Virus record (IMG/VR): IMGVR_UViG_3300032177_002703
Span: 1 to 42,097 of that record
DNA from: a virus
Length of the DNA: 42,097 nt
Strand: one strand, 5' to 3'
Numbering within the stretch: the first letter of the stretch is position 1; every line of letters begins with the position of its first letter. The notes beneath the pieces were generated by a model. It saw only the letters and a program-made list of their open reading frames with translations. It had not been told where the DNA came from and did not search any database. The translations under genes and the position numbers were made by a program. Shown one piece after another: positions 4,567 through 41,226 of the stretch.

Positions 4567-5247
4567 ATGACTGAAATTGTTCTAATGTCATCAGGAGGAA
4601 TGGAATCAGTTCTAATGCTTCATGAACTACCCAAAGAAAAAACAAAAGTTGTGATATTTGATTGTTGGGGCGGTGCTAGAGAAGTTCAGTTTGCTATTAA
4701 ACAGGCACACCATTATGGTGTGGGATATGATGTTATTGATTTGAGTTGGTTTAGTAAATTAATTGTTAAGAATTCTCCAGAGAAATATATACCAGGATTT
4801 CAATTAGTGATGGTAGGTGCTGCGCTGGGATATGCTGAGTCAGTTGGAGCAGAGGTTGTTGCAAATGGAAACATTAGATATGCTGTTAAGGGGTATAGAA
4901 ATAATAATTTGTATTTACCAAATAATCCTGATAGAAAAATTATAGATGATTTGAGTGAAGGATTGTTAATGATTGAAGAGTTATATGAGAAGTTATATGA
5001 TAACAGAGTGCACATATGGTTTCCTTTACTTGGATTGGAAAAGACTGATGTTGTTAACAAATTGAAGAGTCACCATATTAAAGATACCTTTCATTGTAGT
5101 TGTGTTGATGAAGTATCTCCAGGTTATACACATTGCGGTGTTTGCTATAATTGTACAGTTAGAAGGGAGGCCTACAGATTAGTAGGGGAAATTGATGAAA
5201 CAGAATATGAGAATAAAGAATATGATGTGTCGCGATACAGAGTATAG
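4567..5247 (+). CDS. divergent QueC-like PP-loop ATPase
   Basis: The protein has the PP-loop at residues 9-14, but as SGGMES where QueC normally has SGGxDS. It keeps a C-terminal zinc-type cluster (CSC, then CGVCYNC). QueC converts carboxydeazaguanine to preQ0 with ATP and ammonia. This copy has lost the usual substrate region (the conserved Pro/Arg-Asn segment reads YIPGFQLVMVGAALGYAE), so it may act on a different carboxylate. A more canonical QueC is encoded at 27705. It sits between a glycosyltransferase and a radical SAM gene with a 9-base gap to the latter, suggesting a shared pathway. Confidence 0.75.
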   Translation: MTEIVLMSSGGMESVLMLHELPKEKTKVVIFDCWGGAREVQFAIKQAHHYGVGYDVIDLSWFSKLIVKNSPEKYIPGFQLVMVGAALGYAESVGAEVVANGNIRYAVKGYRNNNLYLPNNPDRKIIDDLSEGLLMIEELYEKLYDNRVHIWFPLLGLEKTDVVNKLKSHHIKDTFHCSCVDEVSPGYTHCGVCYNCTVRREAYRLVGEIDETEYENKEYDVSRYRV

Positions 5248-6548: not shown

Positions 6549-7789
6549 TGAATATATTTGAAAAGAGAGAATCTAATGTTAGGAACTATTGTAGAACATA
6601 TGGGGGTATATTTGATAGAGCCAAGAATTCTATTGTTTATTCTTCAGACGGTAAAAAATTTATTGATTTCTTTGCAGGAGCGGGCGCATTAAATTATGGA
6701 CACAACAATAGTTTTATAAAAAATAAAATTGTATCATATATCATGTCTAATAAGATTATGCACGCATTAGATTTTCATACTATAGCAAAGCGGGATTTTA
6801 TTAAGTGTTTTTACGAAAAAATATTGAAGCCTAAGAGCCTAAATTACAAATTTCAATTTTGCGGGCCAACTGGAGCAGACGCAGTTGAGGCAGCATTAAA
6901 ACTTGCAAGAAAAATTAAAAAAAGATCAGGAATTTTTGCTTTTATGGGTGGTTATCATGGCGTATCATTAGGAGCATTATCAGTAACTGGGAATAAAAGA
7001 ATGCGAGGTGCAGGAGGAACTCCCCTTAATAATGTAACATTTATTCCATACTGTAATAAAAGTTTTAATTCGATAGAGTATATGGAAATGATTTTAAAAG
7101 ATAGCCATTCTGGAATTGAAACCCCAGCAGCAGTAATTGTTGAAACTATACAAGCCGAAGGTGGGGTAAATGTTGCAAGAGTGGATTGGTTAGAACAACT
7201 AAAAAAGTTGTGTGAAAAATATGATATGCTGTTTATCTGTGATGATATTCAAGTTGGTTGTGGTAGATCTGGAAACTTCTTTTCATTTGAAAGAAGTGGC
7301 ATTATTCCAGATATTGTAGTTTTATCAAAAGCAATAAGTGGTTATGGACTACCTATGTCAGTTCTATTATTAAAGCCTGAGTTAGATGTATGGCAGCCTG
7401 GGGAGCATGTGGGAACTTTTAGAGGATTCCAATTAGCATTTGTTGGGGCAGTAGCAGCCTTAGAATATCGTGAAAAATATGATTTAGAGAATAAAGTTAA
7501 AGAAAGAGAATCATTTATTAGGAATTTTTTAGAGAAATTTTTTATATATAAAGAAATTGAAATACGAGGATTGGGTATGATTTGGGGAATTGATTTTGGT
7601 AGAGGTAGTATTACTAAGAAAATTGTAAAAACGTGTTTTGATAATGGACTAATTATTGAATCAGCCGGAAGAGATGGTTCTATTTTGAAACTATTACCAC
7701 CACTAAATATCTCAATGAGCAACCTTCTTACAGGGTGTGTTATCATTGAAGAGGCAGTTGGAGAAGTTATGGGAGAATTATTCGTCTAA
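6548..7789 (+). CDS. class III PLP aminotransferase, EctB/diaminobutyrate transaminase-like
   Basis: The 413-residue product follows the EctB-type pattern: FFAGAGALNYGHN, then QFCGPTGADAVEAALKLAR, the GGYHG loop, and ICDDIQVGCGRSG preceding the PLP lysine at about residue 261 (LSKAISGYG). These enzymes aminate aldehydes or keto acids. Length is normal. Its last five codons and stop lie inside a 68-bp segment that is an exact copy of part of the downstream helicase gene (read in another frame), so the native C-terminus may have been altered by a recombination event. The substrate is unknown; its neighbours suggest a phage small-molecule pathway. Confidence 0.88.
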   Translation: MNIFEKRESNVRNYCRTYGGIFDRAKNSIVYSSDGKKFIDFFAGAGALNYGHNNSFIKNKIVSYIMSNKIMHALDFHTIAKRDFIKCFYEKILKPKSLNYKFQFCGPTGADAVEAALKLARKIKKRSGIFAFMGGYHGVSLGALSVTGNKRMRGAGGTPLNNVTFIPYCNKSFNSIEYMEMILKDSHSGIETPAAVIVETIQAEGGVNVARVDWLEQLKKLCEKYDMLFICDDIQVGCGRSGNFFSFERSGIIPDIVVLSKAISGYGLPMSVLLLKPELDVWQPGEHVGTFRGFQLAFVGAVAALEYREKYDLENKVKERESFIRNFLEKFFIYKEIEIRGLGMIWGIDFGRGSITKKIVKTCFDNGLIIESAGRDGSILKLLPPLNISMSNLLTGCVIIEEAVGEVMGELFV

Positions 7790-11358: not shown

Positions 11359-11687
11359 GGATGTGGATGATAGATTCATCAAAGTTGTGTAATAAACATT
11401 TGTTAGGTGAGCATTTGGAATGTCATATGTTTGTGGGAGCTCTAAATAAAAGAACCTCTGTTCAAGGATTTATAAGTAATGGACTACTAGAAATACACAG
11501 TTTGAAAAATAGGCATGAAGATTTAGTAGAGGAGATGTTACATCGAGGAATGATTCATAATTCCAACCTCCCGGCATTTGAAGAAAAAGTATTGGGAAGA
11601 GTAGATGTAAATTTAAATGAAGAGATTTTAAGAACTAGATGTAAAAGATGTTTTGGAGGGAAAAATGAAACAAAGCTTTGCAAATGA
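11355..11687 (+). CDS. pyrimidine-dimer DNA glycosylase-like protein
   Basis: 110 residues starting MRMWMIDSSKLCNKHLLGEH. The N-terminal W-x5-LC-x2-HLLGEH-x2-CH pattern and later NRHEDLVEEMLHRGMIHNS match the Pyr_excise family (T4 endonuclease V/DenV relatives). Members cut the glycosidic bond at UV dimers and nick the abasic site. This is somewhat shorter than T4 DenV (about 138 residues), so activity is uncertain. The last cysteines (RTRCKRCFGG) could form a metal site. It overlaps genes on both sides. Confidence 0.7.
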   Translation: MRMWMIDSSKLCNKHLLGEHLECHMFVGALNKRTSVQGFISNGLLEIHSLKNRHEDLVEEMLHRGMIHNSNLPAFEEKVLGRVDVNLNEEILRTRCKRCFGGKNETKLCK

Positions 11688-12150
11688 AATCTTTATGACT
11701 TATGCAATTTCTAAGGCAATGGAGGGCGTTAAGATAGGCCAAACTCCATTTGGAGCATGTATTGTTAAAGATGGAAAAATTATTAGTTGTGAACATAATC
11801 AAGTTTTAATGAAAATTGATATTACAGCACATGCAGAAATTATGGCAATTAGAGAGGCCTGTAAAGTATTAGGTGATGTGGATTTGTCAGGTTGTACAAT
11901 ATATACTACTTGTGAACCATGTCCAATGTGTTTTAGTGCTTGTCATTGGGCTAGAATTGATAAGATTGTTTATGGTGCAGAGATAAAGGATGCTAAGAAA
12001 GCTGGATTTAATGAGATAGAATTATCAGCAAAACAAATGGCAAAATTTAGTAAGAAGATTAAAGTGGTTAGTTGTAAAGGACTATTGGCCAAAAGGTGTA
12101 TTAAACTTTTTGATATTTGGAATTATAATATATCACCTATTACTTATTAG
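11665..12150 (+). CDS. nucleoside/nucleobase deaminase (CDA fold, guanine-deaminase/TadA-like)
   Basis: 161 residues with the zinc-deaminase signature: H56-A-E58 and then CEPCPMC (C86, C89 as zinc ligands). The body TPFGACIVKDGKIIS and WARIDKIVYGA matches the guanine deaminase/tRNA adenosine deaminase branch rather than dCMP deaminase. I prefer ATG 11665, which follows TTGGAGGG, to the TTG at 11653. A role in nucleotide salvage during host DNA degradation is likely; deamination of guanine would link to purine or 7-deazaguanine metabolism only speculatively. Confidence 0.85.
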   Translation: MKQSFANEIFMTYAISKAMEGVKIGQTPFGACIVKDGKIISCEHNQVLMKIDITAHAEIMAIREACKVLGDVDLSGCTIYTTCEPCPMCFSACHWARIDKIVYGAEIKDAKKAGFNEIELSAKQMAKFSKKIKVVSCKGLLAKRCIKLFDIWNYNISPITY

Positions 12151-13566: not shown

Positions 13567-15384
13567 ATGAAAGAGTTAGCTGAAGAAATACGAAAACATA
13601 AAAAATTATATTATGAAGGAACTCCAGAAATTACTGATGAGGAATTTGATGGATTGGTTGAGAGATTGAGAGAGTTGGATCCTGAGAATGAGGTTTTGGA
13701 AGAAGTTGGGGCCCCAATTGAAAGTGATAAAAAGATTGAACATAGTCGAGTAATGGGTTCATTGGCGGTAATAAATAATGAAGAGGGTTGGTTGAAATGG
13801 TCTAAGTCGTCCTTTTTAAATGAAACTTTTATTGTCGAACCCAAGTTGGATGGTTTAACAATTGTATTAAAATATGAAAAAGGAAATTTGGTATATGGAG
13901 CAACAAGAGGAAATGGTAAGATAGGGGAACTGATTACTTTTGCACATAGAATGCAGGGTGTACCAAATAAATTGCGGGTGGCAGTGGATGTAGAAGTTAG
14001 AGGAGAGGGTGTGGTAAGAAAGGAAGAGGCAGAAAAATTGGGAGCAGCAAACCCAAGAAATCTGGCTGTGGGTTTAACGAAAAGGAAGGATGGAAACGGA
14101 ATTGAGTTGATACATTTTATTCCATTTCAACTTATAAATGGTACAGAGTTGGAAACAGAGTATGATGAGATTTGCAAATTGAAAGAACTAGGCTTTCCCG
14201 AGGTTGTTGAAACCCTACTACGTAGTAGAGATGAAGCGGCTGAAGTTTTCGCTAAGAATGAAGAAAATAGATCAAAGTTAGCTTATGATGTGGACGGCAT
14301 AGTATTTAAATATAATTCCAAAAAGATTCAAAAAAAATTAGGAGAAATAGGGTCAGATCCAAGATGGGCAATTGCTTGGAAGTACAAATCAGAAAAAGCT
14401 AAAACAAGAGTAGTTGAAATTACCCATAAAACAGGCAAAACAGGGAGAGTAGTTCCAGTATTAAAAATTAATCCAGTAAAATTAGCTGGTGCAGTTTGTG
14501 TAAATGTTACAGCAAACAATTATGGATTTATTAAAGATAATAAAATTGGAATTGGTACTGAGATAATTTTGGAGAGAGCTGGAGATGTAATTCCACATGT
14601 CGTAGAAGTAACTAAAGCTGAAGGGGAAGTAATAATTCCAGAAAGATGCACCTGTTGCAATCAAGAACTAAGATGGGAAGGGCCAAATTTGATTTGTGAT
14701 AATATTAATTGTAATCAAAGGAAATTAGCTATAATTCAGAATTGGATTTGGGGTATGGACATCGAGTGGTTTGGACCAGCGGCTCAAAAAGAATTATTTT
14801 TTAATAATTTTATAACAGATATTTCAGATATTTATGAGATCTCTGAAATGGCATATATAGAAGTGATTGGTAGTGCAATGGGCAGGAAAGTTTACAAATC
14901 AATTCAAGAGAAATCGAAAGTTGAATGGTGGAGATTTCTTATGAGTTTAGGAGTACAACATCTTGGGTCCACTGTATCAAAAGAATTAGCAAAGCGATGG
15001 AACACAGTAGATGAAATAATTGAGAACTTAGTTGGTACTGAGATTCAGGGAATGGGAATTATAAAACAGAGAATTGTAAATGAGCTTAAAATTCGGAGAG
15101 AGGAAATTTTAAGAATACTTAAACATATGCAAATTCAAGCAGAGAAAAAGATTGAAACAACAGGAAAATTAAGCGGAACTTTTTGTATCACGGGTACGCT
15201 ATCAAGACCTAGAAAAGAGATTCAAGAACTAATTGCTAAAAATGGGGGGAAAGTATTAGGTGGAGTTTGCAAAGGTTTAAATTATTTAGTGGTTGGTGAG
15301 GCGCCAGGAAGCAAACTTTCCAAGGCACAAGCATTGGGAATTAAGGTAATAAAAGAACAAGACTTATTAGAAATAATTAATTAA
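13567..15384 (+). CDS. ligA: NAD+-dependent DNA ligase
   Basis: 605 residues, slightly shorter than the bacterial enzyme (about 670). Order: domain Ia (HKKLYYEGTPEITDEEFD), the adenylation lysine K93 in EPKLDG, nucleotidyltransferase motifs (GATRGNG, VDGIVFKYN), an OB domain, a four-cysteine zinc finger (CTCC, then C and C at about 360-380), HhH repeats, and a C-terminal BRCT domain (about 530-605, SGTFCITGTLSRPRKE). It seals nicks in phage DNA using NAD+. It is headed by promoter P2. The family call is essentially certain. Confidence 0.97.
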   Translation: MKELAEEIRKHKKLYYEGTPEITDEEFDGLVERLRELDPENEVLEEVGAPIESDKKIEHSRVMGSLAVINNEEGWLKWSKSSFLNETFIVEPKLDGLTIVLKYEKGNLVYGATRGNGKIGELITFAHRMQGVPNKLRVAVDVEVRGEGVVRKEEAEKLGAANPRNLAVGLTKRKDGNGIELIHFIPFQLINGTELETEYDEICKLKELGFPEVVETLLRSRDEAAEVFAKNEENRSKLAYDVDGIVFKYNSKKIQKKLGEIGSDPRWAIAWKYKSEKAKTRVVEITHKTGKTGRVVPVLKINPVKLAGAVCVNVTANNYGFIKDNKIGIGTEIILERAGDVIPHVVEVTKAEGEVIIPERCTCCNQELRWEGPNLICDNINCNQRKLAIIQNWIWGMDIEWFGPAAQKELFFNNFITDISDIYEISEMAYIEVIGSAMGRKVYKSIQEKSKVEWWRFLMSLGVQHLGSTVSKELAKRWNTVDEIIENLVGTEIQGMGIIKQRIVNELKIRREEILRILKHMQIQAEKKIETTGKLSGTFCITGTLSRPRKEIQELIAKNGGKVLGGVCKGLNYLVVGEAPGSKLSKAQALGIKVIKEQDLLEIIN

Positions 15385-15395
15385 GGAGATAAAAA

Positions 15396-15692
15396 ATGTC
15401 GTTGTACTTAAATGATCTAACACGAGAACAAGTTAAAGAGGTGTGGAGATTAGTCATTGAATTCCCTACTTTCAAAGTGGTGGTCCTTGCAGCATATGAA
15501 AAATTTCTTGACGGTGAATATGCCTATTCCATTACCACAGATGATGGAAATAGGGGTACTATTTTAATGTCTAAGAAAGCCAAAACAGAAGTGGAAGCAC
15601 ACAAAGAATTAGACTCTTTGCGCCATCAAATGAGTATAACAATGACTCTAAATGGGGAAAAGAATCCTTCTATAATTTATTGTGATGATTAA
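15396..15692 (+). CDS. hypothetical protein next to repeat region
   Basis: 98 residues with an AAGGAG site in front, transcribed with the ligase gene. No recognised family. The last 12 codons (ending PSIIYCDD) fall within a 48-bp segment repeated immediately downstream, so the repeat array has grown from, or into, the 3' end of this gene. Confidence 0.6.
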   Translation: MSLYLNDLTREQVKEVWRLVIEFPTFKVVVLAAYEKFLDGEYAYSITTDDGNRGTILMSKKAKTEVEAHKELDSLRHQMSITMTLNGEKNPSIIYCDD

Positions 15693-15754
15693 TTTATGAG
15701 TCATTGAAAAGAATCTCTCTATAATTTATTGTAATGATTAATTTATGAGTCATT
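15658..15754 (+). repeat. 48-bp imperfect tandem duplication
   Basis: Copy 1 at 15658-15705 and copy 2 at 15707-15754 differ at three positions only. Each ends in TTTATGAGTCATT, the iteron motif. Copy 1 includes the end of the preceding gene; copy 2 is non-coding. Confidence 0.95.
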
Positions 15755-15766
15755 TTAAAAATAATG

Positions 15767-15857
15767 AAAATAGTCCATTTTAAAGTATAAAAAAGTACTT
15801 TAAAATATGTTTATTTTAAATAAGTTATAGATTGTGTGACTCATAAAACTAAGATTT
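15767..15857 (+). repeat. 91-bp perfect direct repeat, copy A
   Basis: Identical to 16045-16135, 278 bases apart. It includes an inverted repeat (arms 15777-15787 and 15796-15806, ATTTTAAAGTA, loop of 8) and an inverted iteron core TGACTCATA. Weaker similarity continues beyond the right edge (ACGTTCTTTAGACAAAAA against ACATTCTTTGAACAAAAA). Confidence 0.97.
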
Positions 15858-15903
15858 TGCGGTCCTTTTTACGTTCTTTAGACAAAAATAGATATGATTA
15901 CTT

Positions 15904-16015
15904 TATGAGTCATTTTAAAAAATAGGAGTTATTTTAAAAAATAGGAGTTATTTTAAAAAATATGAGTCATTTTAAAAAATATGAGTCACTTTCATAATAT
16001 GAGTCATTTTAAAAA
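15904..16015 (+). repeat. six tandem 19-bp iterons
   Basis: Units at 15904, 15923, 15942, 15961, 15980 and 15998. The consensus is TATGAGTCATTTTAAAAAA. Units 2 and 3 share the variant TAGGAGTTATTTT; units 5 and 6 are 18 bases long. The core ATGAGTCAT is palindromic, as expected for a dimeric binding protein. One helical face is not conserved exactly (19-base period), but the spacing is very regular. Confidence 0.95.
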
Positions 16016-16044
16016 TCATAATTTGAAATTATTTATGACTCACA

Positions 16045-16135
16045 AAAATAGTCCATTTTAAAGTATAAAAAAGTACTTTAAAATATGTTTATTTTAAATA
16101 AGTTATAGATTGTGTGACTCATAAAACTAAGATTT
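16045..16135 (+). repeat. 91-bp perfect direct repeat, copy B
   Basis: Second copy of 15767-15857 including the hairpin (arms 16055-16065 and 16074-16084) and the TGACTCATA core. It is preceded by another inverted core, TATGACTCA, at 16034. The two copies flank the iteron array. Confidence 0.97.
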
Positions 16136-16160
16136 CTACATTCTTTGAACAAAAAACGGT

Positions 16161-16226
16161 ATTAATTATATCATTATTATATTAATAATATTAAGTATAA
16201 TATAAAAATATATTATTATATTATAA
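16161..16226. other. A/T-only tract, candidate DNA unwinding element
   Basis: Of 66 bases only two are G or C, far beyond the already AT-rich background. It lies directly between the repeat block and the ribosome site of the next gene, where an origin's unwinding element or a promoter region would be expected. TATAAT-like strings inside it could also serve transcription. Confidence 0.6.
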
Positions 16227-16268
16227 GGCAATGAATTGAAGGAGAGAAGAAAATGCCAAAAGGAGTTT

Positions 16269-16580
16269 ATGACTCAAGAGAAAGTTCATAAATTATATAG
16301 TGATGATTTAGAAAAAGCTCTTAAAGTCAGAGAAGATTTCTTGAGAGGTTTAACTCCAGAAAGAAGAAGGGATGCTTTAGAATTCTTTAGATCAATAGAA
16401 AGAAAGTTAAAGACGGTTGGAAATACCCATAACAGAATGATCATCTTACAAGAAATGATGAAAGAATCATGCAGTACTTTAAATAAAAAAATGGATGAGC
16501 TTGGAGATCACTTAGATATGTATGAAGAGAAAATTACTAACTTAAGAAAGAGGGTAGAAGAATATCTGGAGACAAAATGA
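16269..16580 (+). CDS. coiled-coil protein next to iteron block
   Basis: 103 residues, almost entirely predicted helix, with heptad-like spacing from about residue 45 to the end (LNKKMDELGDHLDMYEEKIT). ATG 16269 has AGGAG 3 bases upstream; a TTG at 16236 would add 11 residues. The start codon lies within TATGACTCA, the same core as the iterons. A 12-codon ORF from ATG 16253, with a better ribosome site, overlaps the start in another frame. The function is unknown; a role in binding or bridging the repeats is a guess from position. Confidence 0.6.
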   Translation: MTQEKVHKLYSDDLEKALKVREDFLRGLTPERRRDALEFFRSIERKLKTVGNTHNRMIILQEMMKESCSTLNKKMDELGDHLDMYEEKITNLRKRVEEYLETK

Positions 16581-16846
16581 AAAGATTATCATATTATATG
16601 AAATTAAATTATCCAGTAGAAATTTTTAAGATTCCCAATAAACTTGGGGGAGGTTATACTGCATGTATTTCACAATTACGCAAAAACTTATTTGTGGGAG
16701 ATGGTAGAACAGTAGAAGAGGCTCTTGAAGATTTAGAGAAAACAAAAAAGGAAATTTTTACTGATTATTTAAAAAGAGGGGTTTTTATTCCCAATCCAAT
16801 TATGGAAGGATTTAAAGGAGATAAAAAATGTCATTTTGGAAAGTGA
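16577..16846 (+). CDS. HicB-like antitoxin-family protein (orphan)
   Basis: 89 residues with the partial RNase-H fold of HicB proteins: YPVEIFKIPNKLGGGYTACI, a GDGRTVEEALEDLEKTK helix and the downstream FIPNP. HicB neutralises the HicA RNase in type II toxin-antitoxin pairs. No HicA-like gene is adjacent, so this may be an orphan that counters host HicA or has another role. It overlaps the previous gene (ATGA) and the RNA ligase gene by 19 bases. Confidence 0.7.
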   Translation: MKRLSYYMKLNYPVEIFKIPNKLGGGYTACISQLRKNLFVGDGRTVEEALEDLEKTKKEIFTDYLKRGVFIPNPIMEGFKGDKKCHFGK

Positions 16847-18056: not shown

Positions 18057-18499
18057 ATCAAATTGTGCAATTGGTACTTTGGTATTGGAAGATGATACTT
18101 TATGCTTTAATAATTTGTGGTGCTGTACTTGTTCCACTTTTTATATCATTCATTGTGGTGGGGGGAGTAATACATGGTGTTAGAAAATATAAAGGTTGGA
18201 GAGATAGTAAATTAAAAAAAGAGGAATTACTAATTGAAAAATTAGCAGAATATATTCATGATATTCAATGGTCAGGATGGATGAGGTATTTGTTTGGTAA
18301 TTGTAAGGATATGACAGGAAGAGATGATAATCATATAGATTTAATATCAACCTCTACCATACCTACATGGGCATGTGAGAGATGGTCAAGACAGATGCAA
18401 ACTTCTTATAAAGATCTTTCAGAGACGGAAAAGATGTCTGATAAACTTGAAGCGAAACGAATATTGGATGTAATTAAAAATGTCAATGATAAAAATTGA
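18053..18499 (+). CDS. membrane-anchored hypothetical protein
   Basis: 148 residues. A long hydrophobic segment covers about residues 5-46 (one long or two short membrane spans), followed by a basic RKYKGWRDSKLKKEELL stretch and a soluble domain with WSGWMRYLFGNC. The topology suggests a cytoplasmic C-terminal domain. The family is not recognised. The 3' end overlaps the next gene by 20 bases. Confidence 0.6.
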   Translation: MNQIVQLVLWYWKMILYALIICGAVLVPLFISFIVVGGVIHGVRKYKGWRDSKLKKEELLIEKLAEYIHDIQWSGWMRYLFGNCKDMTGRDDNHIDLISTSTIPTWACERWSRQMQTSYKDLSETEKMSDKLEAKRILDVIKNVNDKN

Positions 18500-19577
18500 T
18501 AGAAAACCTATAAATATTGCTCTATTAAGGCACAGTATATATGGATTAAATGGAAGAATAAGAAGAAAATCCATTGATGTATATGATGATGTATGTGTAT
18601 TGTGTTATGAAAGATGGAGACATTTTGTTGAGTGGGAACCCACCTTAGAAGTCCCTAGTTGGATTGAAAATATGGATCCATCTGCTAGATTAGATAATAT
18701 TTATAGGGTTGGATTAAGTTTGGAAGCTTTAGCAGATCAAAAAAGAGAAGATGATTATTTATATGTATCAATTTTTCAATCAGATCCAGATACTATATGT
18801 AAAGGATTAAAATTTTTACATAGTAAAATGTATCTTAGGGCATGGAGTTTATTTTATGAAAGGATTGCTAGGTTTGGATCTTATGATAAGGTGTTTTTAA
18901 CAGTGACGCAGTTGTATGAAGATTATATTAAGTTTTGTGTGGAAATATTGCAAAAAAAGCCTATTTTCAAAACTATACAAACAGAGTATCCAGATTTTAC
19001 ATCTTTATTAAATGCTGCAATATGGTGTGTAAAATATAATATTGATCCTTGGATCTATGTTAAAACTATGTACGATTCTTTTGATAAATTTGAAAAGAAG
19101 GTTAATGGACCCCAGGCGGAGTTGTGTTTTAGTAGTAAACATGTTGGTAGTACTTCTCAAGTTAGACCCCCTGTTAGACAGTTTATAGAGTTGAGTAAAG
19201 AAGGGAATCCATGGAAAGAAATAATAAATTTTATGGGTCTAAGAGAGGATGTAAGAATAGAGTGTTCTTCAGGAATACCATTGGGATTTAGTTTGGCTGA
19301 TCGACATAAAATAAGTGGTTCAATGAAGGAAGTAACTTTAATTCAAGATGAATATTATTGGGCAAATGGAATTAGGTATCAAGCAAGATTTAATTTTGAT
19401 GATAATACAACATTTACAATTTTTATTACTCCAGAAAATTTTAATGAGTTTAAGGATAGATGGAATACTGAGAATCCCGCCATACCCAGCTATGCGGAGT
19501 TAGTAAAATATGGAAGAGGCAATTTAATAAAAGAGAGGTATGAATCAATTAAGAAGTTATATGAAAGGATGATGTGA
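18480..19577 (+). CDS. hypothetical protein, 365 residues
   Basis: A sizeable protein without a motif I know. Notable parts are a Trp/Cys-rich segment around residue 38 (CVLCYERWRHFVEWEP), a helical middle, and a beta-rich C-terminal part (YYWANGIRYQARFNFDD). No signal peptide or P-loop. Start 18480 lies inside the preceding gene; ATG 18486 is an alternative. Similar layouts occur in phage proteins of unknown role; I make no functional claim. Confidence 0.6.
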   Translation: MSMIKIDRKPINIALLRHSIYGLNGRIRRKSIDVYDDVCVLCYERWRHFVEWEPTLEVPSWIENMDPSARLDNIYRVGLSLEALADQKREDDYLYVSIFQSDPDTICKGLKFLHSKMYLRAWSLFYERIARFGSYDKVFLTVTQLYEDYIKFCVEILQKKPIFKTIQTEYPDFTSLLNAAIWCVKYNIDPWIYVKTMYDSFDKFEKKVNGPQAELCFSSKHVGSTSQVRPPVRQFIELSKEGNPWKEIINFMGLREDVRIECSSGIPLGFSLADRHKISGSMKEVTLIQDEYYWANGIRYQARFNFDDNTTFTIFITPENFNEFKDRWNTENPAIPSYAELVKYGRGNLIKERYESIKKLYERMM

Positions 19578-20019: not shown

Positions 20020-20396
20020 TGAATAAAGAAGTTAGAGACAAAATCAAATCACTGAGAGAGCTTGGGGGAAATTTATGTATTTTAAGGGAGAGGTTGAAGA
20101 AAGAATCTAAAATATATATGATAACTACTAATAGTGTTACTTTGAAGGTTAGAGAATGTTTAGAAAGCGCTATAGATGGATTAAATATAGTAGTAAGTAA
20201 TATAGAAGAAGGTATTGTGGGAATAGTTTATCAAGAGTTTCTCGATGAAGAAGATCTGGAAAATGGAGTAAATTTTGAAGAAATAGATATAGAGCCTGTA
20301 GTAGAAGGTGAAATTACATCTACTCATGATTTCTCTCCCACAGGAGAGTCAAGTCCGGGGTATGATGCTGACGGATTTTATACAGAGGAATGGTAA
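20019..20396 (+). CDS. hypothetical protein with acidic C-terminus
   Basis: 125 residues: a helical N-terminal half (LRELGGNLCILRERLKKES) and an acidic second half ending in PTGESSPGYDADGFYTEEW. Short acidic tails of this kind are often protein-interaction sites. The ribosome site AAGGAGG lies just upstream. It is translationally coupled to the helicase loader gene (TAATG). Confidence 0.6.
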   Translation: MNKEVRDKIKSLRELGGNLCILRERLKKESKIYMITTNSVTLKVRECLESAIDGLNIVVSNIEEGIVGIVYQEFLDEEDLENGVNFEEIDIEPVVEGEITSTHDFSPTGESSPGYDADGFYTEEW

Positions 20397-21169
20397 TGAA
20401 CATAAATGTCGAACGAGGTATTGCTATTTTGCAAAAAGAATGGATTGAGAAATGTAATAAGTGTGGTGGAACAGGGTATTTAGAAGTTAGGTTATGTGAT
20501 TGCATGAAGCGATTTCAGACTGGTGTTAAGTTATTGTTAGGAGAATTTCCTCTAGACTTAGTACGATTAGAGAAGCCTGTGTGTGATGATAAGATTTTGG
20601 TTTTTTATAGAGATAATCCAGATAAAGTTTTTGAGAATGGTTTGAGTTTGTATATACACGGTCCTCTGGGGGTAGGTAAAACTTTGTGTTCAGTATGGTT
20701 GTCAGAGAAATTTGTAGGTGCATTTGGTCCTGAGGGCCAATGTGGTTATAAACATGATTTAACAGTTCAATTTATGGAGGCATCAAATTTTGTGTTAAGA
20801 TCTAGAATTAGTGGTGGAGATGATCAAGAGTTGAAAAAGTTTTACAAAACTTTTGATGCATCATTATTTGTATTAGATGATTTTAATAATGAGTATAAAT
20901 CAGTGCAAAATCCTCAGTATGTTCATAGATTGTATGAAATGTTTTTGAGACATAGATTATCAAATTGTCTTCCTACTATTATTACAACAAATGTTCCTCC
21001 TCAGCAAGTATCCACAGAATATGATGTGAAGATTGCTTCTTTGTTAGGAATAAAACAAAAGAAAAGCGGATATGATATGGCTGGTCGGTTTGTTGAAATA
21101 AGACTTGATGGTCCAGATTGGAGAAAATTGGCGAATGATAAAGCGTGGTCAGATTATTTTAAGGAATAA
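20396..21169 (+). CDS. replicative helicase loader, DnaC/IstB-like AAA+ ATPase
   Basis: About 257 residues. An N-terminal zinc knuckle (CNKCGGTGY, then LCDC, residues about 20-36) is followed by an AAA+ core with Walker A HGPLGVGKT, Walker B LFVLDDFNNEY and a sensor stretch TIITTNVPPQQ. Such proteins load DnaB-type helicase on DNA at origins or forks. The N-terminal zinc module is common in Gram-positive bacterial and phage DnaC/DnaI-like loaders. I chose ATG 20396 because of the TAATG junction and AGAGGA site; an ATG at 20390 adds two residues. The DnaB-like helicase gene lies downstream. Confidence 0.88.
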   Translation: MNINVERGIAILQKEWIEKCNKCGGTGYLEVRLCDCMKRFQTGVKLLLGEFPLDLVRLEKPVCDDKILVFYRDNPDKVFENGLSLYIHGPLGVGKTLCSVWLSEKFVGAFGPEGQCGYKHDLTVQFMEASNFVLRSRISGGDDQELKKFYKTFDASLFVLDDFNNEYKSVQNPQYVHRLYEMFLRHRLSNCLPTIITTNVPPQQVSTEYDVKIASLLGIKQKKSGYDMAGRFVEIRLDGPDWRKLANDKAWSDYFKE

Positions 21170-21640: not shown

Positions 21641-21946
21641 ATGGAAGTTAAAGCATACATTTGTCCTAGTTGTGGGGATAAAATTTATAGTAGAGCCAGA
21701 CATGATTTTAGAATGTGTTCTTGTGGTTCAATGTCTGTGGATGGAGGATTTGATTATGTTAAAAGGTCATTGAGTCCGGAATTTAAGTTTGAAGATATAC
21801 TGGAAGAGGAAATTGATTTAGGGGATGTTACAGAAAAGGATTTATTTGAAGATTACAATAGTGCTAAAGATTGTTATGGATTAGAACATGGACATAATTA
21901 TTTGCCAACTCTGGGCTTGTTAAAGATATTGGGAGAATCTGAATGA
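21641..21946 (+). CDS. conserved phage zinc-binding hypothetical protein
   Basis: 101 residues. The N-terminal ICPSCGDKIYSRARHDFR followed by CSCGSMSVDGGFDYV has four cysteines in a zinc-ribbon arrangement and matches a phage family recognisable from IYSRARHDFRxCSCG. Its function is unknown. The C-terminal part is acidic. The stop overlaps the helicase start (ATGA). Confidence 0.75.
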   Translation: MEVKAYICPSCGDKIYSRARHDFRMCSCGSMSVDGGFDYVKRSLSPEFKFEDILEEEIDLGDVTEKDLFEDYNSAKDCYGLEHGHNYLPTLGLLKILGESE

Positions 21947-23265
21947 AATTTACTCAAGAGCTTGAGATTGAATTTTTTAGTGCTGTATTAAAAGATCCAA
22001 AGTTTATAGGAAGATATGTAGAATCTTTTAAAAATTATAGGGGTTCTACTTTTAGTATGGAGTGGATTAGAGATGAGTTGATAAAATGGTATGATAAGTA
22101 TAAGAATTTACCAGCTATAGAAGTTTGGAAATCTTTGATAGAAAATCAATTAGATGGAGAGAATAGAAAATTAGTTTCATCAGTTGTTGAAAATCTAATG
22201 AATCGGGAATCAAAAGCTGGAGAGTATGCTGCAGATAGTTTTTTAGATTTTATGAGTTCTAAGGAGTTAGAAAGATGTGTAGAAGAGGGTAGGGTTTTAT
22301 TTCAAAAGACATTGGATGTAAGTTTATATATGTCTAAGTTGTCAGAGGGATTAACTCTGTCAGAGAGAATAAGATATGGTTCTAATGTTGATAGAGTTTA
22401 TGATTGGTTAGAACAAAGAAAACTAAGAGAATCTAAAAGGGGAATAATTTCCTCAGGTTTGAAGTTAGGGATTCCACAGCTGGATGAACAATTTGTATTT
22501 CGTAGAGGAACTTTGACTGTATTTCAAGGTCCTTATAAAAGATATAAATCGATCATATTACATCATTGTGGTTTTGCGGGTTTGTTACAAGGTTACAATG
22601 TGTTGCATGTAAGTTTTGAGAACACTTTGCAACAGGTGGGGGATAGATATGATTCTAGATTTACAGGAGTTGATTATAAAAGAATGGTAAGGGCTCTGAC
22701 TACAGGAGATGAACAGAGGGTTATGAGTACTGTATTTGAGAGATTAGAAAATCTACCAAATAAATTAAAGATACAAAGATGTGCTCCTTATGTAGATACT
22801 GTTAAAACAGTTGAAATTGCAATTGATAAGTTATACAGACTTGAGGGTTGGATGCCAGATATTATGTTAATTGATTATATAAATTTGGTGGCGTGTGCTA
22901 AAAATATTGAAGATGATTATAAAAGAATAGAATTGGCCTGTTGGGATACTCAAAATTTGGGTAGGGATAGGGATATAATTATGATCTCAGCTTGTCAATC
23001 CCAAAAAGGTGCAGAAGACAGAGAGGATTTAAAGGGTTCAGATTCCGCAGGGTCGGTAGGTATTCTTAGAGCTTCAGATAATCAAATTGCAATTAATCAA
23101 ACTCCAGAAGAGAAGAAAATGAAAATAATTCGATTGTCTCCAGTATTTTTTAGAGACGACGACATCATTACTAAAGATGTTCCATTAAATGCCGAGTTAA
23201 CTAGAATGTGTATTTCAAGGGAAAGTGATAGCTTGTGGGGCGAATTAGATGAAGATCTCTCCTAG
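21943..23265 (+). CDS. DnaB-like replicative DNA helicase with altered Walker A
   Basis: 440 residues with an N-terminal helical domain and a RecA-like C-terminal domain. The linker and helicase entry (GLKLGIPQLDEQFVFRRGTL) and the Walker B segment IMLIDYINLV match the DnaB family. The Walker A is GPYKRYKS (residues 196-203), with Tyr201 where the last glycine of GxxxxGKS is normally found; Lys202 and Ser203 are kept. It presumably unwinds the phage fork with the loader and primase beside it. The gene overlaps the primase gene by 17 bases. Confidence 0.88.
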   Translation: MKFTQELEIEFFSAVLKDPKFIGRYVESFKNYRGSTFSMEWIRDELIKWYDKYKNLPAIEVWKSLIENQLDGENRKLVSSVVENLMNRESKAGEYAADSFLDFMSSKELERCVEEGRVLFQKTLDVSLYMSKLSEGLTLSERIRYGSNVDRVYDWLEQRKLRESKRGIISSGLKLGIPQLDEQFVFRRGTLTVFQGPYKRYKSIILHHCGFAGLLQGYNVLHVSFENTLQQVGDRYDSRFTGVDYKRMVRALTTGDEQRVMSTVFERLENLPNKLKIQRCAPYVDTVKTVEIAIDKLYRLEGWMPDIMLIDYINLVACAKNIEDDYKRIELACWDTQNLGRDRDIIMISACQSQKGAEDREDLKGSDSAGSVGILRASDNQIAINQTPEEKKMKIIRLSPVFFRDDDIITKDVPLNAELTRMCISRESDSLWGELDEDLS

Positions 23266-24127
23266 AATTTATTTATTGTCAAAATTTCCTAATGCCAGAA
23301 AAAGGAGTGGTGAGGAAATAATGATTAGTTGTCCTTTTCATAAGGAGTCTAAACCATCTATGTCAGTTGCATTAGAGACAGGTGTTTATCATTGTTTTGG
23401 TTGTAAGAAAAAGGGAAATTTTGTTTCGTTGTATAAATTTTTAGAGAACATTACGTGGAATGAAGCATCTAATAGATGTGGAACTATACAAAGAAATAAT
23501 TATGATAGAGTTAGAGTAAAGAAGACATTTAAGTTGCCAGATGATTTGATTTCTAGTAATAACTTATTGCCAGTCTATCTTAAGAATAGAGGATTTACTG
23601 TAGAAGATTTAGCATTATTTGATGTATCTTGGAGAATTTCTGATCATGCTATCTTTTTTCCAATTTATGATGAGAATAAAAATTTGATAAGTTATGTGAT
23701 TAGAAGATCAACAGGAAAGAGTAATTATTATTATCCAGAAGATAGTCCCCACATGGATTATTTATATGGGGAGTGGTTAAAGTTACAAGATAAAGTATTT
23801 ATTGTGGAAGGTGTATTTGATTGTATTAGTGTAAATCGTTGTGGATATAGTTCTTTGAGTACTTTTACCACTAGTTTTACTATTGAACAATTAAATAGAA
23901 TGAAGAGATTTATTGTGGAGGGAAGATGTAAAGAGTATGTGGTTTGTTATGATGCCGACGCGTCAGACAGAGGTGATGAGTTAGAGTTTCAATTGGCGTC
24001 CATGGGATGCTCAGTGAACCAGTTAAAATTAAAGTATGGCGATCCAGGGGATAAGTCTAAGGAGCAGATGATTGAAATAATGAATGAGTTTTTAGAAAGA
24101 TCTCTTGACTTGTTAGAACAAACATGA
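23249..24127 (+). CDS. DNA primase, DnaG-like, short
   Basis: 292 residues. The CHC2 zinc finger is C28-x2-H31 and C49-x2-C52 (CPFHKESKPSM, then YHCFGCKKKGN). The TOPRIM catalytic glutamate is in FIVEGVFD near residue 180, with acidic YDADASDRG near 231. It is much shorter than bacterial DnaG (about 580-600) and lacks the C-terminal helicase-binding domain, as in many phage primases. It makes RNA primers for lagging-strand synthesis. Its 3' end contains promoter P3 for the following gene. Confidence 0.92.
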   Translation: MKISPRIYLLSKFPNARKRSGEEIMISCPFHKESKPSMSVALETGVYHCFGCKKKGNFVSLYKFLENITWNEASNRCGTIQRNNYDRVRVKKTFKLPDDLISSNNLLPVYLKNRGFTVEDLALFDVSWRISDHAIFFPIYDENKNLISYVIRRSTGKSNYYYPEDSPHMDYLYGEWLKLQDKVFIVEGVFDCISVNRCGYSSLSTFTTSFTIEQLNRMKRFIVEGRCKEYVVCYDADASDRGDELEFQLASMGCSVNQLKLKYGDPGDKSKEQMIEIMNEFLERSLDLLEQT

Positions 24128-27619: not shown

Positions 27620-27733
27620 ATAGAAATTAACAAAATAAATGCTCATATTTATTTGGATGAGATTAAAGTAGAAAAGTATTTAAAGAGTTTTAGGAGAGTA
27701 AGGGATGAAAAAGACACACCAAGAGATGATTAA
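27620..27733 (+). CDS. possible tiny ORF with ATA start
   Basis: AAGGAGAG lies just upstream of an open frame that has no ATG, GTG or TTG near the site; ATA at 27620 would be used, giving 37 residues (IEINKINAHIYLDEIKVEKY at the start). The 3' end overlaps the QueC start. ATA starts are rare, so this is weak and could simply be a relic of a longer gene. Confidence 0.25.
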   Translation: MEINKINAHIYLDEIKVEKYLKSFRRVRDEKDTPRDD

Positions 27734-28427
27734 AAAGGGTTTAGAAAGAAAGCCAACAAAAAAGGTTGTAGTACTAGTTAGTGGTGGTGCAGATTCTGCA
27801 GCAACAGCCATAAAATTATGTGAAGAGGGTTATGAAGTATATGGATTATTTATAGACTATGGTCAAGAGAATTTAGATGTAGAATTATATTGTGTTAAGA
27901 GTTGGTTAATGACTCATGATGAATTAATGAAGACAGTTATGACAAATGGAGATTTAAATGCAACAAAATCTAAACCTCTTGTAGATTTATTTATTTTAAG
28001 GTTGCCTCGAGATTTAAGTATATTGTTAGGTATGAAGAATAAACCAAAGAATGATGATGAGGCATACATTCCTTTTAGAAATACTTTATTTATGGTTTTA
28101 GCAGCACTATATGCTAACAGAGTTAATGCAGATGGAATATCAATTGGTTTAATGAAAGAAGATTTTGGGGTATTTCCAGACTCTAATTTAAGTCACCATA
28201 GTTTAGTGGAAACTTTATTAACATATTCTGCGGCGAGAGCTTATGAAGTATTCCTTCCAATTAAAGATTGTTCTAAGTCTGAGATAATGGAAATTTGTAG
28301 TAAGAGGAATTTGATGACAGTTAGTTGTTGGTCAGCAAAATTAGTAGATTCAGTTTATGGTGTAATAGTGAAGGTTTGTGGTGAATGTGCTCAATGTAAA
28401 GAGAGAATAGGTGCTGAGAGGAGTTAG
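27705..28427 (+). CDS. queC: 7-cyano-7-deazaguanine synthase (QueC)
   Basis: 240 residues with the PP-loop SGGADS at 26-31, IPFRNTLFMVLAALYANRV, GLMKEDFGVFPDS and the C-terminal zinc cluster VCGECAQCKER. QueC makes preQ0 from 7-carboxy-7-deazaguanine with ATP and ammonia. It starts a run of genes leading to DpdA and FolE. QueD and QueE are not seen in the window, so the first two steps must come from the host or elsewhere. It is more typical than the paralogue at 4567. Confidence 0.9.
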   Translation: MKKTHQEMIKKGLERKPTKKVVVLVSGGADSAATAIKLCEEGYEVYGLFIDYGQENLDVELYCVKSWLMTHDELMKTVMTNGDLNATKSKPLVDLFILRLPRDLSILLGMKNKPKNDDEAYIPFRNTLFMVLAALYANRVNADGISIGLMKEDFGVFPDSNLSHHSLVETLLTYSAARAYEVFLPIKDCSKSEIMEICSKRNLMTVSCWSAKLVDSVYGVIVKVCGECAQCKERIGAERS

Positions 28428-31247: not shown

Positions 31248-32817
31248 AGTGTTTGATATAAATAAGATGCAAGGATGTTTATTTGTACCGGTAATGAATC
31301 AGCTTCCTACTGCTTTACGATCTAAGTGTAAGGAGTATGAGTGGTGGAGAGATGATAATATTTATTTTCAGTATCCTGTTGGGTTGATGGCAGTCAGCTC
31401 TTTGTTTTCTGATCCATTGAAAAGTATTGATCGAGCCAATGAAGTTTATATTGAAAAATCAAAGTTTAGAGAAAATAGAGGAATGCCTGAAAGGGGTAGG
31501 GGTTTTTTGGTAGGAGACAGCGGAGGATTTTTGTTATTTAGAAAAAGATGTATGATACAAGATGTTCAAGCAGTAGATAATACTTTTAAGGCTAAGTTTT
31601 TAGCTCAACTTACAAAATCCGCCTTAGGTATGTCTTATCTTGAGATGCTGAAAAAGTTGACTGAAGATGCGGTGTGGGCAGATCCTGCTAAAATTTTACA
31701 TTGGATGGAACAGAATTGTGATATTGGTTTTACTTTGGACTTGCCTCCATTTGGATCAAAGGCTAGGTTGGGGGATTTATTTAAAGAGTCAGCAGATTTT
31801 ACTTACAATAATAATAAAATATATGCTAGGGTTAGAGAAGATCCCGCATTTAAAATTTATAGTGTTTTACATGGTGATACTATTCCTGAATTAGATTATT
31901 GGTGGGATATGATGAAGGAATTTAATTTTGAGGGATATGCTGTATCGTGTTATTCTAGGGCAGATGCACTTAGTCAGGCATATATTTTGATGTACTTGTA
32001 CAATAAAGGAGTCAGAAAGAATGTGCATTTGTTTGGTGTTGGAAATACAGCCGTTATAGTAATGCTGGCTTATGTATCAAATTGGATTGAACATTTGACG
32101 TTTGATAGTTTTTCTATTGGGCAGGGATTATCTAGAAGAGTTTTTAAGATGTTGGGACAAAGAATAGGTTTAAGATTTGGAGATGTATTTCAAGATGAAA
32201 ATGGAGGATTAGAGGGCCTGCCTTGTGATTGTCCTGTATGTAGTGCTTCTACTATTGAAGATTATAATGATTATTATGGTGGATATAGATTGGTTATGCA
32301 TAATTTGTATGATACAATAAGGTGGACACACTTTTGTAATTCATTAAGAAAAGTTCCAGAAAAGTTAAAGTCTGTGGCTAAACAAGCAGTATCATCAAAG
32401 GATGATTTAGATGTTCTGCGATCCATAGAGTTTATTTCATGTTGTATGGAGGAGGGATTTGAAATAGCATGTAACAAATATAGATTGTATTTAATGAGTG
32501 AAGATAAATTGTCAAAGTCGGTTGTATCTACGACTAGTGCAGGGTTTGGTTTTAAATGTATAGAAAAGAAAGAGGAAATATTATCAAGAAAGAAAGTAGA
32601 CTCCTCTACCACAAGAAGATCTAAGGTTAGTAAATCTAATTTTATGGATTCAATTGTAGTGGAAGAGATGGAGATTAAGAGTGTAGAAAGATCTCCAACA
32701 TGTTTTCCGAATTTTGATTCTAATTGTGATGAAGAGTTTTGTGATTGGTTTGAGCGCTGTAAAATTAAATTTGAAGGAGAAAAAGATGGGGAAAAAGAAG
32801 TCCAGAAAGATTGTTGA
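31240..32817 (+). CDS. dpdA: DpdA-like DNA 7-deazaguanine transglycosylase (TGT paralogue)
   Basis: 525 residues with a TIM-barrel TGT core. VGDSGGF gives the base-binding/acid aspartate D93; LDLPPFG (D167), SVLHGD, LFGVGNTA and the nucleophile-like D289 (FDSFSIGQG) follow. The zinc site is C329-x-C331-x2-C334 with H354 (CDCPVC). DpdA proteins exchange guanine in DNA for preQ0-derived bases and so protect phage from restriction. The C-terminal 130 residues are extra, charged, and end with a Cys4 module (PTCFPNF, CDEEFC, WFERC). QueC upstream and FolE downstream support this assignment. Confidence 0.9.
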   Translation: MSKVFDINKMQGCLFVPVMNQLPTALRSKCKEYEWWRDDNIYFQYPVGLMAVSSLFSDPLKSIDRANEVYIEKSKFRENRGMPERGRGFLVGDSGGFLLFRKRCMIQDVQAVDNTFKAKFLAQLTKSALGMSYLEMLKKLTEDAVWADPAKILHWMEQNCDIGFTLDLPPFGSKARLGDLFKESADFTYNNNKIYARVREDPAFKIYSVLHGDTIPELDYWWDMMKEFNFEGYAVSCYSRADALSQAYILMYLYNKGVRKNVHLFGVGNTAVIVMLAYVSNWIEHLTFDSFSIGQGLSRRVFKMLGQRIGLRFGDVFQDENGGLEGLPCDCPVCSASTIEDYNDYYGGYRLVMHNLYDTIRWTHFCNSLRKVPEKLKSVAKQAVSSKDDLDVLRSIEFISCCMEEGFEIACNKYRLYLMSEDKLSKSVVSTTSAGFGFKCIEKKEEILSRKKVDSSTTRRSKVSKSNFMDSIVVEEMEIKSVERSPTCFPNFDSNCDEEFCDWFERCKIKFEGEKDGEKEVQKDC

Positions 32818-33379
32818 AGCAACTACCGAAATTTTAAAGGAACTTGGTGCAAATTTGATGGATGCAAATTTTGTTGGAACCCCTGATCGATATGAAAGGG
32901 CTTATAGGGAATTTGTTTGGTCAGAAGAAAAGAAATGTAAAGAGATAGAAAAAATATTTAAAGCTATTTTTCCAGATACATATGATGGAGTTGTTACTTG
33001 TGGTCCTATTTATGTTACGACATTGTGTCCTCATCATTTATTGCCTGTAAAACTAAGAGCTGTAATAGCATACTTACCTGATGGTAGGGTAATTGGTGCA
33101 AGTAAATTAGTAAGGATAATAGATGTATGTAGTAAAGGAATGATGTTGCAAGAAAAACTGACCAGAGATGTAGCCGATGTGTTGATGAAAAGTTTGAAAC
33201 CGAAAGGAGTGGCAGTAACACTAGACGGCAGTCATGACTGCATGACAACCAGAGGAGTAAAACAAGATAGGTGTATTTTTAGAAATAGAGTGCTTAGAGG
33301 TGCATTTTTAGATGATTCAGCTCTAAGAACTGAGTTTTTATTTGATTCATTATTTACTTTGTTAATGGGGAGGGATTGA
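32786..33379 (+). CDS. folE: GTP cyclohydrolase I
   Basis: 197 residues from ATG 32786 (AAGGAG 6 bases upstream); it overlaps the end of dpdA by 32 bases in another frame. Zinc ligands C81 and H84 in LCPHHLLP and C152 in HDCMTTRGV are conserved, as is VIGASKLVRI. FolE turns GTP into dihydroneopterin triphosphate, the first step to preQ0 and folate. Together with queC and dpdA it marks a deazaguanine modification pathway. The QueD and QueE steps are missing in this window. Confidence 0.95.
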   Translation: MGKKKSRKIVEATTEILKELGANLMDANFVGTPDRYERAYREFVWSEEKKCKEIEKIFKAIFPDTYDGVVTCGPIYVTTLCPHHLLPVKLRAVIAYLPDGRVIGASKLVRIIDVCSKGMMLQEKLTRDVADVLMKSLKPKGVAVTLDGSHDCMTTRGVKQDRCIFRNRVLRGAFLDDSALRTEFLFDSLFTLLMGRD

Positions 33380-39975: not shown

Positions 39976-41226
39976 ATGAAAGATGGAAGAGTGATGGGGA
40001 TAGCTGCAGATAAGGACATGCAGCGAATTGAGGATAAATCTAGTGGTGGTTATCAAGTCAATTATAATTGGTATAGAATGTTACCAAAGGAAGATGGAGA
40101 GAAGGCGGACAATAGGTTGTATTGTGGTTTGTTTAAACCTTCTAGTTTTGCATATTTGGGAGAATGTGTTCCAAAAGATTTATATACTTATTATCTAAGA
40201 ATACCTCTACATTATTTGTATGATCCAATAGAGGGTAGAAATGTTCCTATAGTTTGTATTGATGGATTTAATGATGTAATAAAGACTTCTATTCCTGGTT
40301 CTGTTGGAGTACCATTTCCAGATCAAAGTTGTAAATATTGTGCTATGGAAAAGGGGTGGTGGAAAAAAGCAAATGAAAGAAGAGAGGCATTGGGCGGAAA
40401 GCAGGTACCTTATGAAACTCTAACAAAAGATGAGGATTGGATGCTGAAGAGAAATATGGCTAGAAGTTTTAAATCTTCAGATAGGTATTTCTTTTTAGTA
40501 TTGGATATTGATAAGTTGCTTGTAAATAAGCACATGGATGAGGATGAAGTTTTACAAATGCAACTGTATAATGGTTCTGAAACTATTTTTAAGAACTTGT
40601 ATCAAAAGGTGCATCTTGGATATAGTTTTTGGAATCTCGATGACCCTAAAATTTTAGTAATTCATAGGGATAATAAAAATGGAGCCCAAAGGCCAGATTA
40701 TGTTATCGAAATTGATCCTAGACCTTTGAAACTAACTGATGAGGTTAGAGAATTAATATTGTCAGAGGAGTTTTATCCAGATGTAATGAAAGAATTAGTT
40801 ATTCAAACATCAGAAGAACAGTTAGAGATGTTGAGGGCTAGAGAGGATGAAACATCTTTAATTGGTGTTGTAGTTCCTACAAAAGCCGCAACAATGATAG
40901 ATATTGGGGTTAAGGAGACAGTGGGATCTAAGCAATCAGAACCAAGTGGAATTAAATTAAGAACACAAATTAAAACTCAGAAAGTTGTAGAGGCATCAAA
41001 AGTAGAACCAAAAGTAGAACCAAAAGTAGAACCAAAAGTAGAATCAAAAGTAGAACCAAAAGTAGAACCAAAAGTAGAGGAAACAGTCACAAATATTGAG
41101 GGTGAAGTACTAGAGGAGAAGGAGGTGATAAAGGATTCAGAATCATTAGTTGAAAAATTAAATAGGGCCAGAAGGATAAAGAATGGAGCGGTAGAAGTTG
41201 GTGGAAAGCAATATAGATCATTTTAA
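39976..41226 (+). CDS. possible phage ssDNA-binding protein with KVEP repeat linker
   Basis: 416 residues. The body has a zinc-like CKYC, then DRYFFLVLDIDKLLV, TIFKNLYQKVHLGYSFWNLD and PKILVIHRDNKNG..., an order reminiscent of gp32-type OB-fold SSBs (zinc knuckle, then metal and DNA contact strands), but similarity is faint. Residues about 342-366 repeat KVEP, and a basic tail (KLNRARRIKNGAVEVGGKQY) follows. AAAGGAGG gives the ribosome site. Alternatives are a scaffold or another replication accessory. Confidence 0.45.
   Translation: MKDGRVMGIAADKDMQRIEDKSSGGYQVNYNWYRMLPKEDGEKADNRLYCGLFKPSSFAYLGECVPKDLYTYYLRIPLHYLYDPIEGRNVPIVCIDGFNDVIKTSIPGSVGVPFPDQSCKYCAMEKGWWKKANERREALGGKQVPYETLTKDEDWMLKRNMARSFKSSDRYFFLVLDIDKLLVNKHMDEDEVLQMQLYNGSETIFKNLYQKVHLGYSFWNLDDPKILVIHRDNKNGAQRPDYVIEIDPRPLKLTDEVRELILSEEFYPDVMKELVIQTSEEQLEMLRAREDETSLIGVVVPTKAATMIDIGVKETVGSKQSEPSGIKLRTQIKTQKVVEASKVEPKVEPKVEPKVESKVEPKVEPKVEETVTNIEGEVLEEKEVIKDSESLVEKLNRARRIKNGAVEVGGKQYRSF
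40998..41081 (+). repeat. 12-bp coding minisatellite (KVEP repeats)
   Basis: Seven tandem 12-base units beginning AAAAGTAGAACC (the fourth has TC for CC, the last diverges) encode KVEP repeated in frame. In-frame unit changes would alter linker length without breaking the gene. Confidence 0.95.

Follow-up and report, generated by a model that had tools for sequence, protein, structure and literature searches.

Where does a large environmental phage begin to copy its DNA? To our knowledge, the origins of most such phages are unmapped. IMG/VR virus record IMGVR_UViG_3300032177_002703 (42,097 nt, linear and possibly a fragment; this whole stretch is hereafter called the window) raises the question at one locus, a 576-bp gene-free interval (15693-16268) that is by far its largest intergenic gap, the second largest being 258 bp. 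The interval contains an array of short palindromic repeats beside an A/T tract. The original prediction proposed it as a candidate phage origin, and this proposal gained support from two relatives in which repeat architecture and lowest duplex stability occur together at the same place, one of them with a different repeat. The region is probably an iteron-type replication origin that would open an AT-rich element and load DnaB. This interpretation fits the comparative evidence best, and it remains unproven.

The motif TGASTCA occurs ten times within 700 bp (15600-16300), against only four copies in the remainder of the window. In 2000 dinucleotide shuffles of this region, the mean was 0.05 sites and the maximum three; chance is therefore excluded as the source of this density. 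Nine of the ten sites fall within the gene-free interval, and the tenth overlaps the ATG at which the next gene probably starts. The iterons are 9-bp palindromes centred on S and spaced 18-91 bp apart, with one more located 155 bp further on (Table 1). Six 19-bp iterons built on the palindrome had been predicted. A tandem array of this unit was found, but exact ATGAGTCAT is present in only three of the six units (15905, 15962, and 15999), that at 15981 reads ATGAGTCAC with one mismatch, and those at 15924 and 15943 have decayed to AGGAGTTAT; the final step of the array is 18 bp. A motif scan confirmed the further copies in both orientations, and the two 91-bp perfect repeats with their 11-bp-arm hairpins were also recovered, offset from each other by 278 bp. 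The A/T run, predicted to be 66 bases, is an A/T-rich tract of 67 nt (16160-16226) with two G/C (65/67 A/T) and a longest pure A/T run of 31 nt. No open reading frame (ORF) of at least 60 amino acids (aa) was detected on either strand between 15692 and 16236, which agrees with the predicted lack of a gene, except that the proposed beginning of the region, 15658, lies inside the last codons of a 98-aa ORF. Neither terminators nor DnaA boxes were found in the array region (the nearest TTWTNCACA are at 13938 and 19026), an RNA family search returned nothing but one tRNA, and a literature search for ATGAGTCAT yielded unrelated papers only.

Duplex stability was calculated from nearest-neighbour energies over 100-, 200-, and 300-bp stretches of whole records. 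At all three lengths, the stability minimum of the whole record falls in the array region, both in the window and in the two relatives, L003 and G001; the 100-bp minima are located at 16127-16226, 6874-6973, and 51126-51225, respectively. The locus combines the two features expected of an iteron origin, namely short repeats clustered beyond chance and an adjacent, easily melted AT-rich element. In all three phages, the array is situated upstream of a cassette encoding a 365-aa protein, a DnaC-like helicase loader, DnaB, and primase.

L003 is a close relative (ligase 88% identical at the aa level) and keeps the element between the same genes, with four sites, one unit, one hairpin, and the A/T tract. 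When both window units were aligned with the L003 unit, 54 consecutive columns around the hairpin were identical, and ATAAGTTAT (with a TAASTTA core) was kept in the invariant segment. Because of this alignment, the window array most likely traces back to one ancestral unit, of which L003 still has a single copy; a duplication offset by 278 bp and tandem expansions of 19 bp and 49 bp would have produced the present form. Comparison of the units suggests that unit 1 of the window has most likely lost its A/T tract. Conservation of the array in L003 is not special in itself, because coding regions contain longer exact matches between the two phages. Exact 17-mer iteron searches gave scattered single matches and a cluster in the close relative only; the hairpin core likewise matched the close relative only, with no match in bacterial genomes. 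Two small ORFs (coiled-coil-like and HicB-like) occupy 16269-16846 of the window, between the array and the RNA ligase gene; L003 has no small ORFs ahead of its RNA ligase gene.

The more distant G001 (60 kb), found by a scan seeded with a DnaB alignment, is 65% identical to the window in DnaB and 53% in the 365-aa protein. Both phages have the gene order SNF2-like helicase, cupin, further genes, 365-aa homolog, loader, DnaB, primase, sigma factor, UDG-like protein, and clamp. Neither ligase nor RNA ligase was detected in G001 or in six distant relatives. A 282-bp gap (L385:11105-11386) is located within the interval from the helicase gene to the 365-aa gene in G001. TGASTCA-like sites are absent from this gap, which instead contains five TTAASTTAA sites at steps of 33, 31, 31, and 31 bp, with both centre orientations. 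When all 512 classes of nine-base odd palindromes were scanned without bias, TTAASTTAA emerged as the strongest cluster in the 60 kb of G001 (p about 1e-9, before correction for classes). TTAASTTAA and ATGASTCAT have equal length, odd symmetry, and an S centre, and their cores, TAASTTA and TGASTCA, differ by one symmetric transition per arm.

Table 1. Positions of the repeat elements and neighbouring genes in the window.
Feature	Position	Strand	Remarks
98-aa ORF	15396-15692		3' end is part of the 49-bp tandem duplication
49-bp tandem duplication	15657-15754		2 copies, 94% alike, ATGAGTCAT at the end of each; first copy holds the 3' end of the 98-aa ORF
Iteron ATGAGTCAT	15696-15704		
Iteron ATGAGTCAT	15745-15753		
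91-bp perfect repeat, unit 1	15767-15857		
Hairpin in unit 1	15777-15806		11-bp arms ATTTTAAAGTA/TACTTTAAAAT, 8-nt loop
S-centred palindrome ATAAGTTAT	15820-15828		TAASTTA core, as in the iterons of G001
Iteron variant GTGACTCAT	15836-15844		Centre in opposite orientation
19-bp tandem array	15904-16015		5.9 units
Iteron variant ATGACTCAC	16035-16043		Centre in opposite orientation
91-bp perfect repeat, unit 2	16045-16135		Hairpin 16055-16084, ATAAGTTAT at 16098, GTGACTCAT at 16114
Candidate DNA unwinding element	16127-16226		Lowest stability of any 100-bp duplex in the 42-kb record; includes the A/T tract
Weak promoter-like site TTGAAC-18-TATCAT	16145-16174	+	9/12; kept in L003
ATGACTCAA	16269-16277		Overlaps the probable ATG of the following gene
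365-aa protein	18480-19577	+	No recognised family; conserved cassette member; candidate initiator by position only
DnaC-like helicase loader	20390-21169	+	phrog_50, E 2.5e-13
DnaB-like replicative helicase	21943-23265	+	phrog_19, E 4.1e-37
DNA primase	23249-24127	+	phrog_47, E 4.3e-39

Base composition was also compared on both sides of the array, as GC skew had been suggested as a check on the prediction. Plain GC skew is uniformly positive in the window, without a sign change. Such a profile is expected for one-way genes, and all clear genes of the window are on the + strand. GC skew at 4-fold sites was 0.09 to the left and 0.34 to the right of the array (gene-order permutation p 0.0014), and 4-fold T/A, 2-fold T/C, and 2-fold G/A shifted in the same direction (p 0.012-0.018). 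The shift is confined to neutral codon sites, and its minimum is broad. Its direction is the one expected of an origin with the + strand as leading strand on its right and as lagging strand on its left. The G001 array is located near the minimum of its detrended skew curve.

These data can be arranged into a mechanism of bidirectional replication, with forks leaving the array both ways. A dimeric, phage-encoded initiator would bind the odd palindromes, ATGASTCAT in the window and TTAASTTAA in G001. The bound array would strain and open the adjacent AT-rich duplex (16127-16226), presumably melting at the A/T tract, and the DnaC-like loader would place DnaB on the opened duplex, to be followed by primase, clamp, and PolA. 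Annotation of the window identified the NAD-dependent ligase, RNA ligase, loader, DnaB, primase, clamp, clamp loader, and PolA, an unusually complete replication gene set that bears out the predicted proximity of replisome genes. A further proposal is that the 365-aa protein founds a new initiator family binding S-centred 9-bp palindromic iterons, in which initiator and iterons would have switched specificity (TGASTCA versus TAASTTA, by symmetric changes in both arms) without a change in the origin architecture; this proposal is speculative and, on balance, improbable.

Several observations weigh against an origin at this locus. The order SNF2-like helicase, ~370-aa protein, intervening gene(s), loader, DnaB, and primase was found in seven distant phage loci (L305-L308, L310, L311, and L369), the ~370-aa member of L307 and L310 being assigned by place and alignment, without a tblastn match. 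In these loci, the ~370-aa gene directly follows the helicase gene. Because the distant phages pack the cassette without a comparable repeat gap, the array is not ancestral to it and is instead a feature of the lineage of the window and G001. No initiator was identified: a search of the window, L003, and G001 gave no match to Phage_rep_O (PF04492), and the 365-aa protein is without a known relative, with no convincing PHROG or PDB sequence match, no relative in a genome search, and a structure prediction from two sequences that was unusable (predicted local distance difference test, pLDDT, 36). The A/T tract as such is not kept in G001, where the array itself is the least stable stretch. The skew minimum of the window is broad (12-21 kb), metabolic genes at the left end could contribute to it as a confounder, and the four skew shifts of G001 agree in sign but lack significance (p 0.16-0.35). 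Repeat copy numbers come from metagenome assemblies. Finally, the TGASTCA motif proves nothing by itself. Arrays of it at replication genes in unrelated phages (L050, L057, L122, and L160) had pointed to a common iteron. Use of the motif as an origin fingerprint in IMG/VR array scans was dropped because the control palindrome TCASTGA forms arrays at least as often, some of them in genes resembling replication genes by eye. The argument for an origin thus depends on where the array lies, how it is built, and how unstable its duplex is among the related phages.

The main rival to an origin is an operator array, in which a dimeric phage regulator on the palindromes controls the downstream replication operon (RNA ligase or accessory genes, 365-aa protein, loader, and DnaB) and no replication starts. 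Palindromic sites in both orientations suit such a regulator equally well, the array precedes replication genes in the window, L003, and G001, and the weak promoter-like site at 16145 is retained in L003. However, the phage has a stronger type of promoter elsewhere. Near-consensus sites with the outline TTGACTTG-N9-CAAACATGATATAAT occur in other gaps of the window (12344, 13512, and 24105) and at 4451, 4516, and 13719 of L003; they are likely the phage's own strong promoter set. This promoter is missing from the array gap, where the + strand has only 9/12 sites in the window and L003 and the only stronger promoter-like site in the window's gap, within the A/T tract, is read from the - strand (16194-16165). 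In G001, no site on the + strand of the gap reaches 9/12. Moreover, nothing about an operator requires the lowest duplex stability of the record, ten sites across 570 bp are many for a simple operator, and the neutral-site skew shift also speaks against it. A purely regulatory array is therefore rather unlikely, whereas an origin with autoregulation would combine both functions, and operator function is possible without excluding an origin. The near-consensus promoters of the window and L003 are nearly identical and of the extended -10 type (TTGACT...TGATATAAT), in gaps before genes.

Functionless repeats, either selfish or inflated by assembly, in a gap between operons are a much less probable explanation. 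Repeats that are tandem or perfect expand readily and are easily misassembled, the window and L003 have very different copy numbers, and many viral contigs contain short palindrome arrays; yet L003 and G001 preserve the position, the architecture, and the instability, and the repeat of G001 is both different and regularly spaced. Least credible is a role in packaging (pac/cos-like) or partition (parS-like), with a small terminase subunit or a ParB-like protein as the binding partner. Gene-free repeat arrays can serve as such sites, and in virus contig L126 a TGASTCA array adjoins the gene for a terminase small subunit, but the window, L003, and G001, which may be fragments, gave no match to ParB_N (PF02195) at E 0.1, only one sub-threshold partial match to the ParA family (12 bits), and no match to Terminase_6N (PF03237), the sole terminase family searched, and the G001 array adjoins replication genes more than 20 kb from the apparent tail genes (read from protein starts only).

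Other TGASTCA arrays were encountered among viral contigs. The gene-free L126 array (11568-11861; nine sites) is ~190 bp from the terminase gene and could be a packaging site. Mixed-orientation arrays directly 3' of VapE/D5-type helicase genes (L057 549-840 and L122 1272-1448) are candidate origins, and repeats within DnaD/O-like replication initiation genes (L050 764-803 and L160 9110-9182) resemble lambda-type internal origins.

An iteron-type origin in the window can be compared with three known systems. In lambda-type origins, iterons for the dimeric initiator O adjoin an AT-rich tract, with four iterons in lambda and six in Stx phages (PMC7466680). The window region likewise has several iterons beside an AT-rich tract, in numbers that vary between relatives, and a helicase loader in the replication module, pointing to a loader and DnaB pathway (phrog_50 and phrog_19). 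It differs in that the array is intergenic, whereas lambda iterons lie inside the initiator gene, in the lack of a Phage_rep_O match, in the phage's own DnaB, and in its sites, which are S-centred 9-bp palindromes at the irregular spacing given above or at ~31 bp in G001. Other lambdoid phages also have different iteron sequences. The region most likely works like ori-lambda without being a member of the lambda family, because its array is intergenic and no O-like protein was detected. The RepA_N-type origin of PLE, a satellite of Vibrio phage ICP1, consists of noncoding, semi-palindromic direct repeats that serve as binding sites of the initiator and are required for replication (PMC7145576). 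The window shares the noncoding region with semi-palindromic repeats, but no RepA_N protein turned up in its annotation, in which no search was aimed at RepA_N. Iteron plasmid origins of the Rep_3/RepA type similarly have short tandem iterons adjoining an AT-rich element. In contrast to these, the window sites are palindromic and in both orientations, the annotation contains no plasmid Rep, and no DnaA box is near the array.

The neighbourhood of the array contributed further observations. ATG 16269, preceded by AAGGAG, is the most likely start codon of the gene that follows the array. The 98-aa protein gave a weak structure prediction (pLDDT 61) and no significant match in a fold search, the best being a WGR domain (E 0.05). 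Cassette-bearing contigs (L305, L306, L307, L308, L310, L311, L369, and L385) range from 23 to 212 kb, and the cassette phages have about 30-59% G+C. The window phage, large and probably contractile-tailed, also encodes two QueC-like proteins and a GTP cyclohydrolase (4567-5247, 27705-28427, and 32714-33379), which possibly belong to a 7-deazaguanine pathway of DNA or tRNA modification. A 12-bp repeat, CAAAAGTAGAAC (6.8 copies, 97% match), is located at 40997-41078, within the ORF at 39976-41226.

If the array is an origin, it would provide a concrete origin for a large environmental phage, together with a comparative test, namely a search for S-centred palindromes that cluster where the duplex is least stable, ahead of a loader/DnaB cassette. 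Between the window and its relative G001, the iteron sequence would then have turned over with the layout preserved, which would make the co-evolution of initiator and origin testable, and the recurrent, unnamed 365-aa protein would join the possible phage initiators.
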